55,902 bases of DNA from the NCBI GenBank assembly GCA_017399145.1, contig JAFQEG010000028.1:1-55902 (forward strand). The letters run 5' to 3'. A model generated the notes under the pieces. That model was not told where the DNA came from. It worked only from the letters and a program-made list of their open reading frames with translations, and did not search any database. The position numbers and the translations under genes were made by a program. The DNA comes from Clostridia bacterium. GTDB taxonomy: Bacteria; Bacillota; Clostridia; Oscillospirales; CAG-272. Below, in pieces: positions 25,283-31,768 of this stretch (position 1 is the stretch's first letter; every line of letters starts with the position of its first letter).

Positions 25283-25840
25283 ATGAAAAATCTAAATAAT
25301 CTTGAAGATTTGCTTTTGGCAGTAAAATCTGGCAACGATAGTGCATACGAGAAGCTATGCAAGGACTATCTCGGCTTGGTCATTACATTGACAGATAAAT
25401 ACTATGTAATGTGCCAAGGTAACGGTGCAGAAAGAGAAGAGTTTCTACAAGAGGCAAAATATGCTTTATACAAAGCCGCTCTTAGCTTTAAGCTTGACAA
25501 TGGACGAGTGACCTTTGGCAATTATGCTAAGAGATGTGTAAGGAATAAGTTGATTTCCCTTGTTAGAAAGTATAAGTCAAAAAAGCGTTCGTTGATAGTT
25601 GTTACCCCACTAGATGAGAGAAAGGGAGGCAGTGCTTCAAATTTCAATTGTGATGAACTTGGTGACACAATGACAGCTTTGGCAGATAAAAATTTATCTG
25701 CATTTGAAAAAACAGTTTTTTCAATGTATTTGGTTGGTATGAAGGGTAAGGAAATTTCTAAAAGATTAAAAATCGAGCAGAAATCCGTAAACAATGCGAT
25801 ATACAGGGTCAAGGTTAAGCTCAAGGGCATAGATAAATAG
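25283..25840 (+). CDS. Sigma-70 family factor, SigH-like
   Basis: A 185-residue RNA polymerase sigma factor. Region 2 runs from about 50 to 105 (EFLQEAKYALYKAALSF, VTFGNYAKRCVRNKLISLVRKY) and region 4 from about 140 to 182 (LSAFEKTVFSMYLVGMKGKEISKRL...SVNNAIYRVKVKLK). The region 4 wording (KGKEI, KSVNNAIYRVKVKL) resembles SigH. The location near rlmB agrees, since rlmB and sigH are neighbours in many Firmicutes. It is shorter than typical SigH (about 210-220). It could drive early sporulation genes. Confidence 0.75.
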   Translation: MKNLNNLEDLLLAVKSGNDSAYEKLCKDYLGLVITLTDKYYVMCQGNGAEREEFLQEAKYALYKAALSFKLDNGRVTFGNYAKRCVRNKLISLVRKYKSKKRSLIVVTPLDERKGGSASNFNCDELGDTMTALADKNLSAFEKTVFSMYLVGMKGKEISKRLKIEQKSVNNAIYRVKVKLKGIDK

Positions 25841-26330: not shown

Positions 26331-27152
26331 TTGAAGAATAAAAGTTACGATAAAAACAATTTCAAAAATAAAGAATTTAACAAGAATAATGACTATAAAA
26401 GAACAGAACAAAACGAAGATAGTGGTACTGTCGTAGGCAGAAATGCTGTAAGGGAGCTTCTAAAGAGTGATAGGACAATAGAAAAAATCTATGTAAAAAA
26501 GGGTGGGGCTCATGAGGGCTCAATTACTGTCCTAGTTGCAGAGGCGATTTCTCGTGGTATTCCAATTTCTGAGGTCGAGCAACAAAAGCTTGACTTTTTG
26601 AGTGGTGGCGCTAACCATCAAGGAATTATTGCGATTGCATCAATGAAGGAATATTCAAGCATGGACGATATGATTGCTTTAGCACAAGAGAGAAACGAAA
26701 AGCCACTTATTGTTATAGCCGATTCTATTGAGGACCCTCACAATCTAGGTGCACTTATTAGATGCGCAGAGTGTGCTGGTGCTCACGGCTTAATAATACC
26801 TAAAAGACGTGCTGTGGGAATCACCTCAACAGTATATAAATCATCTGCTGGCGCAATCGAGCATATGCTTATCGCTAAGGTATCCAATATTGCAACAACA
26901 ATAGAGGAATTAAAGAAGAAGGGACTTTGGATATTCACCTCCGAGGCAGGTGGTACACCATATTACGAGACAGATTTCAACTGTGCTTGTGCAGTTGTTT
27001 TAGGGTCTGAGGGAAATGGTGTTTCAAGACTTGTTAAGGATAGAAGTGATTATATAGTATCTATACCAATGTATGGAAAGGTTAACTCACTAAATGTTTC
27101 GACTGCAGCCTCTGTAATTCTTTGTCATGTAGCAAGAATGCAAAGAAGCTAA
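26331..27152 (+). CDS. rlmB: 23S rRNA (guanosine-2'-O)-methyltransferase RlmB (SpoU family)
   Basis: A 273-residue SPOUT methyltransferase acting on the 23S peptidyl-transferase region. The N-terminal L30e-like substrate domain has VVGRNAVRELL; the knot motifs are DPHNLGALIR (motif 1), VVLGSEGNGVSRLV (motif 2) and PMYGKVNSLNVSTAASV (motif 3). The first ~30 residues are a low-complexity Lys/Asn stretch. The start is TTG with GAGGTG seven bases upstream. It leads an operon with the next three genes. Confidence 0.95.
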   Translation: MKNKSYDKNNFKNKEFNKNNDYKRTEQNEDSGTVVGRNAVRELLKSDRTIEKIYVKKGGAHEGSITVLVAEAISRGIPISEVEQQKLDFLSGGANHQGIIAIASMKEYSSMDDMIALAQERNEKPLIVIADSIEDPHNLGALIRCAECAGAHGLIIPKRRAVGITSTVYKSSAGAIEHMLIAKVSNIATTIEELKKKGLWIFTSEAGGTPYYETDFNCACAVVLGSEGNGVSRLVKDRSDYIVSIPMYGKVNSLNVSTAASVILCHVARMQRS

Positions 27153-27180: not shown

Positions 27181-29256
27181 ATGGAAGAAAAGAAGGAAAT
27201 AGAATTTGATGACCAAAATCAAGATAAGAATGCTGAGCCTCATGGTATTTCTATTAATATAACACCCGACGATGATATTAACGAGGACGATTTTGTCTCG
27301 CCAAATAAGGAAATATTTCAAAAGGTTGCAGGGGATATTAGTGGCTCGGGTAACTTGTTTTACTGGCATAGTCGTGATAAGGAAAAAACAGGCGACTTTG
27401 AATTAAACGAGGCATACTCCCGTACTGCACAAACTGACAAAAGGTTTAATGAGGCCTTTGGTCAATCTATACATGCTGTGTCTGATAAACAGTCTGACGA
27501 CGACCAAAATGATGATGACCAGGTTGATTATGAATATAATGACCGTCTTCAAAGAAAAGAAATTATTGGTATGTACAAGTATGCAAAGAGTAGCTTGAAA
27601 ACCAAGCTGATTCTATCTAGCATATTTGCAATCGTTATATTTTTAGTCGAAAATCTGACTATATTAATACCTAATGCACCTACAATTTGGGAATATTTTG
27701 ATATATACAAGCACCCATATATTCACACAATCATAAGCTTAATTGCTTTAGTTGCATGTGCTTTGTTTGCTTACGAACAGCTTTATCACGGAATAAAATC
27801 TATCTTTAAGAGGAATTTCATTCCTGAATCAGTTGCAGGTATTGCACTTGGTATTGCATTAATTAACAATCTTTTTCAGTTCATTTCAGTATCAGTATTT
27901 CACCAACCCCCGGCACTCTACAATTTCCCAGTTGCTATTATAATTGTAACAACCATTATGTACTCATACATAAACGTTGCAAGAGAGCGCTTTGGCTTCG
28001 GTGTAGTTTCATCAAAGAATTCAAAATTCTTTCTTGAAAGGGTATTTGAAAGTGATGCTGAGGCAGAGTTTGATACATTTACATCAACCTCAAATGGAGA
28101 ATTTAAGGGTGAGATTGCTCGCGTAGGAAGGACAACCTTTGTAAAGAATTATTTTGCGAATACAAATGCACCAGTTAATCTAAAAGGTTTTTTAAAGATT
28201 TATTACTTCTTTGTACTTATAGTATCCTTGGTGTTTGCGGTTGTGGCAATGTTTAAGAATTACAACCTTGCTGACTCCCTTACTTATTTTTCAATATGTG
28301 CACTTATGCTTTTACCTGTTGGTACGCTTTTTGCATATAGCATACCATTCTATTTTGGAAATAAAACCCTCTACGATGATGAGGTTTCCATAATTGGTGA
28401 AAATGCAATAGACGATTTTTCAAAAATGGACGTTGTAGCTGTTAACGATACATCTGCATTTCCACCATCAAATGTTAAGCTTACTTACTTCAATGTGTAT
28501 AACAATTTCACAATGGAGGATGTTATTTATTACGCAGCAAGTGGTTTTTCTGTTGTTGGTGGACCACTGGCTGAGGTATTTGATGCTGCAACTAATAACG
28601 CAGTAGCTAAGAGTAAGCAGGTTAAATTCACATGTGCAGGAAGAAGCTATCTATGTGTTAGCATTGATGGACATAATGTTATTTTTGCCGATAAATTCGG
28701 CATGACAGCCCAAGGAATTGAGGTTGGTGCAGAAAGAGATGATGTTGAGGATGTATCTGTAATGTATACTGCGTGCGACGGCGTGCTTTGTGCAAAAATG
28801 TACATCAAATATCAAATCGACGAGGAATTTGTTAAAACTGCAATAAGCTCCAATAAAAATGGTTTAATTATTGGAATAAGGACCTTTGACCCTAATATCA
28901 GTAATGATTTGCTTGCTAAAATTACAGGTTTTGAGAAGCACGATGTTAGAGTTATTAAGCTATCAAATCCTAAGGAGGTGCCAACACACACACCTAAAAA
29001 GGATGCAAGAATAGTTTCAAAGGGACGCTCTAGTGCACTATTAAAGGCAATCCCTGTATGTAAAAGAATTTCAACAATTAGAAAGGTAATTAAGGCACTT
29101 AAGATAGTAGCATCGGTGTTGGGTGGCACTTATATAGGATTATGCATTTTTGGTGTGCTAGGACTTTTACCATCAGTAGCAATCGTCCTATACTATCTTG
29201 CATTTTTCGTAATTATGCTACTTTTGACCATCATAATGTTGCCTAAAAAGATATAA
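27181..29256 (+). CDS. P-type ATPase-like membrane protein lacking catalytic motifs
   Basis: 691 residues, not a recognised named family. The first ~130 are acidic and soluble. Eight hydrophobic spans are grouped four (about 141-265), two (about 340-392) and two (about 640-687), the layout of heavy-metal P-type ATPases. Between them: ARVGRTTF and NTNAPV where the actuator domain ends; ALMLLPVGTLFAY where CPC sits in M4; VSIIGENAIDDFSKMDVVAVNDTSAF (about 402-427) where the usual ILIKGGEALE...VDTVVFDKTGT sits; AASGFSVVGGPLAEVFDAA like the AASLExxSEHPLA segment; and VMYTACDGVLCAKM...NGLIIGIRTFDP like the pre-hinge region. The phosphorylated Asp is Asn422, TGES and GDGxND are absent. Its stop overlaps the next start (TAATG). 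Role unknown; a pseudoenzyme by inference. Confidence 0.7.
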   Translation: MEEKKEIEFDDQNQDKNAEPHGISINITPDDDINEDDFVSPNKEIFQKVAGDISGSGNLFYWHSRDKEKTGDFELNEAYSRTAQTDKRFNEAFGQSIHAVSDKQSDDDQNDDDQVDYEYNDRLQRKEIIGMYKYAKSSLKTKLILSSIFAIVIFLVENLTILIPNAPTIWEYFDIYKHPYIHTIISLIALVACALFAYEQLYHGIKSIFKRNFIPESVAGIALGIALINNLFQFISVSVFHQPPALYNFPVAIIIVTTIMYSYINVARERFGFGVVSSKNSKFFLERVFESDAEAEFDTFTSTSNGEFKGEIARVGRTTFVKNYFANTNAPVNLKGFLKIYYFFVLIVSLVFAVVAMFKNYNLADSLTYFSICALMLLPVGTLFAYSIPFYFGNKTLYDDEVSIIGENAIDDFSKMDVVAVNDTSAFPPSNVKLTYFNVYNNFTMEDVIYYAASGFSVVGGPLAEVFDAATNNAVAKSKQVKFTCAGRSYLCVSIDGHNVIFADKFGMTAQGIEVGAERDDVEDVSVMYTACDGVLCAKMYIKYQIDEEFVKTAISSNKNGLIIGIRTFDPNISNDLLAKITGFEKHDVRVIKLSNPKEVPTHTPKKDARIVSKGRSSALLKAIPVCKRISTIRKVIKALKIVASVLGGTYIGLCIFGVLGLLPSVAIVLYYLAFFVIMLLLTIIMLPKKI

Positions 29257-31103
29257 TGCAAAACATAAGCGCAATTTTAAAAAATGTTTCTAAGCCTGGT
29301 AGATACACAGGTGGAGAATACGGACAAATAATAAAGGACAAAAGCAAGGTAAAGGCAAGAGTGGCCTTTTGCTTTCCAGACACTTACGAAATAGGAATGT
29401 CAAACCTAGGAATGAAAATTCTTTATGGTGCATTAAATCAGCTTGATGACGTTTGGTGCGAAAGAGTATTTGCACCTTGGACGGATATGGAAGAAAAGAT
29501 GCGCAAATATAACATTCCACTTTTCGCCCTTGAAAGCAAGGATGAAATCAAGAAATTTGATTTTATGGCAATGTCCTTACAATATGAGCTTTGCTATACA
29601 ACTGCAATCAATATGATTGATTTAGCTGGCTTAAATATTTTTGCAAAAGACAGAAATGAAAGTGACCCAATTCTTTTAGGTGGTGGTCCTTGTGCCTATA
29701 ACCCTGAGCCAGTTGCCGATTTCTTCGATATCTTCAGCATAGGTGAGGGCGAGGAAGCACTTTGCGAGCTTGTTCAACTATATATTGATATGAAATCAAA
29801 GGGAAGCTATTCTAAAAAGGCATTTTTGAGAGAGGCATCTCACCTAGAGGGCTTCTATGTACCATCACTATATGATGTGGAATATAACGAGGACGGCACA
29901 ATCAAAAGCTTTGTGCCTAAATATGAAGATGTACCTAAAAGAGTAATAAAAAGGGTAATAAGCGACCTAAATACCTCTTATTTCCCTACAAAGCCTGTTA
30001 TGCCATACATAGAAACAGTCCACGACAGAATAATGCTTGAAACCTTCCGTGGCTGTATTAGAGGCTGTCGCTTCTGTCAGGCAGGAATGGTATTCCGTCC
30101 TGTACGTGAAAAGAGTGCCGAGGTTTTAAATGCACAAGCTAAGGAATTGTATAAAAACACGGGTTATAATGAGATTTCATTGACATCACTTTCAATTAGT
30201 GATTACTCATGCCTACACGAGGCAACTGATAGCTTACTTGAATGGACGAATGAAAAGAAAATCAATTTGTCCTTACCATCTTTACGCGCAGATAGCTTTA
30301 CTAAGGAATTGATGGAAAAAGTTTCTTCAATTCGTTCAAGCGGACTTACCTTTGCACCTGAGGCGGGTACACAAAGGCTAAGAGATGCTATCAATAAGAA
30401 TCTTTACGAAAAAGACCTTTTAAATGCAGTAAGCCTTGCATTTAGAGGCGGAAAAAGTATGGTTAAGCTATACTTTATGAATGGCTTACCTACAGAAACC
30501 TACGAGGATATTGAGGGTATTTCAACTCTTGCATCTTTGGTTGTTGACGAGTTTTATAAAACACCAAACAGACCAAGAAAGCCACTTACAGTTACTGTAA
30601 GCGTGTCTTGCTTTGTACCAAAGCCTCACACCCCATTCCAGTGGGAGCCACAAAATTCCTTGGAAATGCTTTGTGATAAGCAAAAATTCTTAGCTGAAAA
30701 AATTACCGATAGAAAGGTAAGATATAATTGGCACGAGGCAAAGGTGTCTCGACTAGAGGCGATTTTCTCTAAGGGAAACAGACGTTTGTCTAAGGCAATA
30801 GCACAAGCGCAAGCCGAGGGAATGGTGTTTGATGCTTGGGAAGAGTATTTCGATTACGATAGATGGATGGAAATATTTGAAAAATGTGGTATTGACCCCA
30901 ATTTTTATGCAAATCGTCGTATTCCATTTGACGAAATTCTTCCTTGGGATGTTATTGACATTGGAGTAAATAAATCATTTATGATAAATGAAAACAAAAA
31001 GGCATATGAAAGCTTAACCACACCTAACTGTAAGGAAAAATGCTCAGGCTGTGGCGCTAATCGTCTTGGAAAGGAGCTAACATGGTGTCCCAACAAGAAG
31101 TAA
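29256..31103 (+). CDS. TIGR03960 family B12-binding-like radical SAM protein
   Basis: 615 residues. The N-terminal half (about 35-240) resembles a cobalamin-binding Rossmann domain (VAFCFPDTYEIGMSNLG, LGGGPCAYNPEP). The radical SAM cluster is C267-x3-C271-x2-C274 (RGCIRGCRFCQAG). The C-terminus has CSGCG. The reaction is unknown; the gene is nearly always followed by a TIGR03936 gene, as here (22-base overlap), and often lies near rne/rplU-rpmA, which are absent in this window. Confidence 0.93.
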   Translation: MQNISAILKNVSKPGRYTGGEYGQIIKDKSKVKARVAFCFPDTYEIGMSNLGMKILYGALNQLDDVWCERVFAPWTDMEEKMRKYNIPLFALESKDEIKKFDFMAMSLQYELCYTTAINMIDLAGLNIFAKDRNESDPILLGGGPCAYNPEPVADFFDIFSIGEGEEALCELVQLYIDMKSKGSYSKKAFLREASHLEGFYVPSLYDVEYNEDGTIKSFVPKYEDVPKRVIKRVISDLNTSYFPTKPVMPYIETVHDRIMLETFRGCIRGCRFCQAGMVFRPVREKSAEVLNAQAKELYKNTGYNEISLTSLSISDYSCLHEATDSLLEWTNEKKINLSLPSLRADSFTKELMEKVSSIRSSGLTFAPEAGTQRLRDAINKNLYEKDLLNAVSLAFRGGKSMVKLYFMNGLPTETYEDIEGISTLASLVVDEFYKTPNRPRKPLTVTVSVSCFVPKPHTPFQWEPQNSLEMLCDKQKFLAEKITDRKVRYNWHEAKVSRLEAIFSKGNRRLSKAIAQAQAEGMVFDAWEEYFDYDRWMEIFEKCGIDPNFYANRRIPFDEILPWDVIDIGVNKSFMINENKKAYESLTTPNCKEKCSGCGANRLGKELTWCPNKK

Positions 31104-31768
31104 TTCCAATAAGAATAAAATTTTCTAAAACAGGAAACTTAATGTATATATCTCACTTAGACCTAGCAAGGACAATGCAAAGAATTATAACACGTGCAGG
31201 TATTGATATTTGGTATAGTGAGGGCTTTAACCCTCAACCAAGGCTTACCTTTGCTGTGCCACTTCCAGTTGGAGTAGAGAGTAATTGTGAGCTTCTTGAT
31301 TTCAAAATCAATTCATATATGTCATGTGAAGAAATTGCTAAAAGACTAAGCGATAGCTTTCCAGAGGAAATGAAGGTAATTTCTGTATATGTCCCCGAGC
31401 AAAAATTCAAGAATATAGGATATATAGACTATACAATAAATCTATTTTCTAGTAAGCTAACAGAAGAAAGCTGTGAGATTATAAAGGATTTGTTTTCAAA
31501 GGAATGTGTAATCACCAAAAAAACAAAAAGTGGGGAAAAGCAAGTAGACATTAGCAATTACATAAAGCTAGTCGAAGCAGAAAAGATTGACGGTGGTATA
31601 TCAATTCATACGATTTTAACGGCAGACAACGAAAATTATTTAAACCCTGAATATTTTGTCAGCGCCATTAAAAACAAATTGAGCATACTACAAGACAACG
31701 AGGTTAACGAGTATTACACTATAACAAGAAACAATATGCTAGACCTCGATATGAAGGGATTTATCTAA
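31082..31768 (+). CDS. TIGR03936 family radical-SAM-associated protein (DUF2344)
   Basis: 228 residues. The core IRIKFSKTGNLMYISHLDLARTMQRIITRAGIDIWYSEGFNPQPRLTFAVPLPVGVES is the DUF2344 signature. It is the constant partner of the preceding radical SAM protein, fused to it in some genomes. GGAG precedes the ATG inside the end of the upstream gene. Function unknown. Confidence 0.93.
   Translation: MVSQQEVIPIRIKFSKTGNLMYISHLDLARTMQRIITRAGIDIWYSEGFNPQPRLTFAVPLPVGVESNCELLDFKINSYMSCEEIAKRLSDSFPEEMKVISVYVPEQKFKNIGYIDYTINLFSSKLTEESCEIIKDLFSKECVITKKTKSGEKQVDISNYIKLVEAEKIDGGISIHTILTADNENYLNPEYFVSAIKNKLSILQDNEVNEYYTITRNNMLDLDMKGFI

Follow-up and report, generated by a model that had tools for sequence, protein, structure and literature searches.

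The locus and the encoded protein

The window analyzed here is the whole stretch of 55,902 nucleotides of a Clostridia bacterium contig (JAFQEG010000028.1). It contains a 691-aa frame at 27181-29256 on the + strand, with an ATG at 27181 and a stop codon at 29254-29256. The reverse strand across 27181-29256 has no long frame, the longest one listed inside it encoding 105 aa. The end of rlmB at 27152 is located 28 bases 5′ of the ATG, and the stop codon overlaps the start of a radical SAM gene as TAATG. The neighboring products were assigned to RlmB (TIGR00186), TIGR03960, and TIGR03936, each above its cut-off. The features are as follows.

25283-25840, + strand: sigma-70 family factor, located 5′ of rlmB in the window's genus
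26331-27152, + strand: rlmB, the upstream neighbor order-wide
27181-29256, + strand: predicted P1B-type pseudo-ATPase, 691 aa, single copy, of a family kept across the order (open reading frame, profile searches, and hhalign)
27181-27573, + strand: acidic N-terminal extension, ~residues 1-131, of lineage-specific length, containing the well-conserved E118
27598-27981, + strand: spans 1-4, ~residues 140-267, corresponding to MA, MB, M1, and M2 of P1B (alignment and hydropathy)
27982-28185, + strand: A-domain remnant, ~residues 268-335, about half the canonical length, without TGES
28186-28350, + strand: spans 5-6 (M3/M4), ~residues 336-390, with LPV (378-380) replacing CPC
28444-28464, + strand: residues 422-428, N-D-T-S-A-F-P, replacing DKTGTLT; family motif x-D-x-[DET]-x-F-P
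28468-28815, + strand: N-domain remnant, ~residues 430-545, of canonical length, with GGP replacing EHP
28882-28896, + strand: residues 568-572, T-F-D-P-N, counterpart of the TGD motif
28996-29001, + strand: ~residues 606-607, the point where the P-domain GDGxND segment is missing
29095-29241, + strand: final two spans (M5/M6), ~residues 639-687
29256-31103, + strand: TIGR03960 B12-binding radical SAM protein, a neighbor in the window's family
31082-31768, + strand: TIGR03936/DUF2344 radical SAM-associated protein

Hydropathy analysis of the window protein showed hydrophobic spans in a 4+2+2 layout. The peaks were located near residues 152, 189, 227, and 252-258, then at 349 and 375-379, and residues 639-687 formed a single hydrophobic block with room for two spans. 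This agrees with the eight grouped spans of the original prediction, whose soluble landmarks (ARVGRTTF; LPV for CPC; AASGF...GPLAEVFDAA; ACDGVLCAK...GLIIGIR) are also present. A motif check likewise confirmed that the protein is without DKTGT, TGES, and GDGxND. The predicted acidic N-terminus of ~130 residues was found in the window protein, where residues 1-130 include 34 acidic and 15 basic ones, but it is not a family constant, as its length varies.

Across members, between 20 and 906 residues precede the residue-140 column, and the extension differs in sequence also. Nine members of ~545 aa, the smallest form and all belonging to family f10 (L181, L182, L184, L185, L186, L188, L189, L191, and L192), have almost no extension, indicating that the fold does not depend on it. 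A pattern like SLDDILAEF recurs among the 117 members outside the genus, 36 of which have it (e.g., residues 15-21 of L049). It was matched by 0.04% of shuffled tails and by 2 of 960 other frames; its definition came from the very sequences used for the count. At the DNA level, a search of 10 genomes found it at four places, three in the pseudo-ATPase gene and one a reverse-strand chance match. Perhaps this pattern serves as a docking motif.

P1B ancestry and maintenance across the order

The window protein alone had no match in Pfam and nothing over the cut-off in NCBIfam (best E=0.013), and its best match among solved structures (PDB) was CopA at E=0.022. We then used a family profile (alignment A1) of 31 members, excluding the split genes L035 and L038. 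This profile matched LpCopA (3rfu) at E=4.6e-31 and other solved P1B pumps at E from 7e-22 to 1e-12, the first unrelated match being at 0.0078. Individually, 14 of the 31 members matched TIGR01525 at E≤0.01 (best 1.1e-11) and 13 matched CopA (PRK10671) at the same threshold; the window protein itself matched neither. Furthermore, hhalign was used to compare A1 with 12 intact P1B pumps from within the order, each carrying DKTGT, CPC, and a GDGxND motif; this gave 99.9%, E=1.6e-35, and 516 columns at 13% identity.

An unrelated membrane protein could resemble P1B pumps by chance, as might be suggested by the lack of a significant Pfam, NCBIfam, or PDB match for the window sequence alone and by the fact that only 2 of the 31 members matched Pfam E1-E2_ATPase even at E≤1. 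However, the profile and profile-profile comparisons were decisive, with the domains in the right order, and chance resemblance was rejected on the evidence of A1 and hhalign, so that we give it next to no weight. From these matches and their domain order we infer P1B ancestry, as originally predicted. At the sequence level, the similarity across the membrane, P, and N domains is decisive in marking the predicted product as a diverged P1B-type ATPase. In common with CopA/LpCopA (3rfu), the family has the domain order, the 4+2+2 spans, the N-domain length, remnants of motif I and TGD, and the Pro of CPC. Unlike these pumps, it is without DKTGT, TGES, GDGxND, CPC, and the HP His, has an A domain of about half the length and a P domain ~30-35 residues shorter, and in many members carries a long acidic N-terminus.

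With the window protein as the query, 50 of 57 related genomes gave a match at E≤0.001. Among the 57, G007, G016, G021, G026, and G037, which are 53-75% complete, had no member even by profile. In a phylum sample of 398 genomes, a full match was obtained in seven of seven genomes of the order, its own included (E 9.7e-238 to 1.4e-72). None of the 391 other phylum genomes had a full member at an order-level E-value; two best candidates per genome were scored, and this count rests on the best E-value of each. The best match outside the order (7.4e-39) was a canonical-type partial match, and among the non-order matches listed, most covered the P/N part of canonical pumps. Within the order, exactly one match at E≤1e-45 was observed in 112 of 117 genomes and in 68 of 71 genera, which bears out the prediction that the family is fixed.

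Five genomes of the order are without a member, and at least two of them look like contig ends: in G451 the contig breaks off ~0.4 kb past rlmB, within an acidic frame that is perhaps the 5′ end of the pseudo-ATPase gene, and in G514 a contig ends at the expected locus start. The remaining three, G479, G502, and G537, had neither a family member nor RlmB over the family cut-off, and this double absence could result from joint loss or from an assembly gap affecting both.

We also considered whether the gene is a decaying pseudogene of a P1B pump. Its catalytic motifs are lost, and it is split in two frames at L035 (4164-6557) and L038 (5221-7445), as either decay or an assembly error would produce. 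In contrast, dN/dS was 0.041-0.138 in five pairs (synonymous change being near saturation in four), the gene is an uninterrupted frame at nearly every locus, and it is present in 112 of the 117 order genomes. Decay was thus rejected on the purifying selection across the order, and we regard it as extremely improbable. For comparison, dN/dS was 0.034-0.123 for rlmB and 0.016-0.032 for the radical SAM gene, in four pairs each. The median identity across 93 loci was 17% for the pseudo-ATPase vs. 46% for rlmB, and the divergence of the former tracked that of the latter (r=0.70, 93 loci, with 0 of 999 permutations as high). This fast divergence also fits a loosely constrained role.

Loss of the catalytic residues

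P-type ATPases are defined by a phosphorylated Asp. Motifs were counted in 142 distinct members from 160 loci, identical aligned rows being counted once; these include 25 members of the window's genus, and the split L035 and L038 were kept as fragments. DKTGT was found in 0 of 142, as was GDGxND, the P-domain segment carrying it being deleted. CPC in M4 was also absent from all 142, with Cys at 378 in five and at 380 in two members, and the Pro of CPC was retained in 110. The HP-motif His at column 461 was observed in none of the 142, and five have a His one column earlier. TGES does not occur at the A-domain site in any of the 142, its sole occurrence being residue 153 of L010, in the N-terminal extension.

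Some other residues of the P/N head are common among the members. The TGD counterpart keeps T/S568 in 116 and D570 in 138 of the 142 members, with the Gly lost; N572 is found in 114 and Y544 in 131, and the N-domain glycines and the Met following them are still common in the family. Domain lengths were compared with canonical spacings of ~128, 93, and 149 residues, counted by eye on the hhalign alignment. The A-domain stretch is 46-81 residues long in 140 members vs. the canonical ~128 of L051, so that most of this domain is deleted. After TGD, the P domain has 53-70 residues in 140 members vs. ~93 canonically, a shortening by ~30-35 residues, and the P+N part has 143-164 residues in 140 members, close to the canonical ~149. 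The deletions in the A domain and in the GDGxND part of the P domain, together with the loss of the catalytic motifs, were thus found throughout the family as foreseen from the single protein.

Residue 422 aligned with the phosphorylated Asp in phmmer, hmmsearch, hhalign, and the canonical P1B HMM, in accordance with the position proposed for Asn422. The Asn, however, is not fixed among orthologues as had been supposed: column 422 has N in 29, S in 27, D in 22, T in 22, and R in 11 of the 142 members, followed by others. The 22 members with Asp in this register are without the Lys, TGT, the His, and GDGxND. The conserved acid is mostly Asp423 instead (D in 117, E in 8, A in 11, and S in 6). 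Column 425 has D in 81, E in 25, and T in 24, the window's genus having T, S, or A there, and F427 and P428 are found in 122 and 115 members. Thirteen members have D at 422 without D at 423, and four have no acid at either position. Of all members, L165 lies nearest to canonical P1B. Judging from the aligned residues, an acid appears to be kept near the old active site, while DKTGT is not. We considered a one-position shift, with D423 as the phosphorylated Asp; this was unsupported, as the four alignments put D423 at the Lys register without a gap. Taken together, the protein is almost certainly a P1B descendant without the catalytic set, and, as far as its residues tell, it appears similar to kinase-like and HAD-like pseudoenzymes, in which the fold and the selection on it are kept and the catalytic residues are lost.

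Gene neighborhood and the possible role

Neighbors were counted at 100 loci with flanks, one per genome, of which 95 had a readable preceding frame. As predicted, the position behind rlmB is conserved, since 93 of the 95 have rlmB as that frame, in the same orientation. One exception is L035, where the preceding frame is the front portion of the split gene itself. At L050 (3137-4498, + strand, genome G034), an ObgE GTPase gene precedes the member, not rlmB. The downstream genes vary between loci, rlmB being the constant neighbor. The proposed coupling to the radical SAM gene holds in the window, by the TAATG overlap, and in its family, but not order-wide. The radical SAM pair is found downstream in the window's genus and some relatives, and a constant radical SAM partner was rejected because only part of the order has it as the following gene. 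At L071 (8120-9964), the downstream radical SAM gene is broken in two frames. In 28 of 100 loci, one of the next two genes downstream is EF-G-like and has the same orientation (e.g., L178, 7701-9749, + strand). An intact P-type pump was not seen as a constant neighbor in the flanked loci.

All five f19 genomes, as well as G044 of family f12, encode a P2-like ATPase of 736-818 aa immediately 5′ of rlmB, giving the gene order P2-like, rlmB, P1B-like. These genes are located as follows.

L178, 2540-4747, + strand: P2-like dead ATPase
L183, 8171-10378, - strand: P2-like dead ATPase
L190, 8054-10261, - strand: P2-like dead ATPase
L156, 2091-4538, + strand: P2-like dead ATPase
L166, 8325-10778, - strand: P2-like dead ATPase
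L038, 1970-4408, + strand: P2-like dead ATPase

The P2-like proteins resemble the P1B-like family in being without TGES, GDGxND, and DKTGT at its site (the L178 protein has the letters DKTGG elsewhere in its chain) and in lying beside rlmB. They differ in their P2-type descent and in their confinement to two families. Aligned by hhalign to five intact P2-type pumps, the five f19 proteins gave 100%, E=6.7e-40, and the f12 protein had matches to the intact P2 HMM (6.9e-28) and to TIGR01522 (8.5e-20). Within the searched genomes, the gene is confined to f19 and f12, at 6 of 100 flanked loci. A wider search with one P2-like protein found close relatives in f19 only; by length and coverage the remaining matches, not all of which were checked, looked like ordinary pumps.

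The genome of the window encodes three P-type ATPases of its own with DKTGT, TGES, and GDGxND, indicating that the pump function is covered elsewhere. For the pseudo-ATPase, we favor, as on balance probable, a sensor or scaffold function in the membrane over that of a pump. In the ancestor of the order, a P1B metal pump would have lost ATP-driven transport and been retained for another job. The protein would sit in the membrane, and its reduced P/N head would act as a binding module. The former active-site acids, mostly D423 and D/E/T425 together with D570 and N572, may form a new site for a cation, a nucleotide, or a partner, although placing this site at D423/D570 is a guess from residue conservation. 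Binding would be signaled to, or read from, the intact membrane helices, and the acidic N-terminal tail may dock a partner. Since rlmB is the constant neighbor, this partner would most likely be linked to ribosome maturation or translation. Gene order by itself is no proof of such a link, and the neighbors other than rlmB vary; we regard the link as plausible but somewhat doubtful.

Other roles were weighed against that of a sensor or scaffold. The bundle might conduct a metal or another small solute without ATP, passively or coupled to an ion, with the P/N head as its gate. The retention of all eight spans in the 4+2+2 layout, and of the CPC proline by 110 of the 142 members, would suit such a transporter. 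We consider it unlikely, however, as the metal-site Cys residues are gone from all but a few members and no conserved charged residue stands out in the spans, where mainly P, G, and aromatics are conserved. A subunit regulating another P-type pump, paired with a live or a second dead one, would be in line with the six genomes of two families that have the P2-like gene upstream of rlmB. Its rarity among the flanked loci and the inconstancy of intact pumps as neighbors make this distinctly unlikely.

An enzyme of changed chemistry was also considered. A D-x-D/E motif works in HAD-superfamily phosphatases, and, outside the genus, the majority of members combine D423 with D or E at 425, with T/S568 and D570 kept. 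In contrast, no member retains the GDGxND acids (HAD motif IV), the alignments put D423 in the Lys register and not that of the Asp, and the window's genus has T/S/A at 425. Phosphatase-like chemistry is thus very improbable.

Returning to the sensor or scaffold, a broader reading is that a P1B pump became a fixed single-copy membrane receptor or scaffold at the rlmB locus, with a new acidic site, and that in two families a P2-type pump was independently killed and came to lie at the opposite side of rlmB. This combination is tentative and, taken as a whole, somewhat unlikely; if true, dead P-type ATPases would have been recruited twice to the same ribosome-maturation locus. No described bacterial P-type pseudo-ATPase was found in the titles and abstracts of the open-licence literature, which leaves subscription papers and preprints mostly outside, and the passages found by word search in a review of P-type ATPases (PMC10654040) describe no such bacterial family. 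This is weak evidence that an order-wide P-type pseudoenzyme family is novel.

Single-sequence annotation misses such proteins, as the window protein falls below the Pfam and NCBIfam cut-offs. The order-wide loss of the catalytic set beside rlmB suggests that a pump scaffold is usable as a non-transport module, and the family would be a clean case for the role of the membrane and N domains without ATP. For common gut bacteria, it also points to a membrane partner in translation or the maturation of ribosomes.
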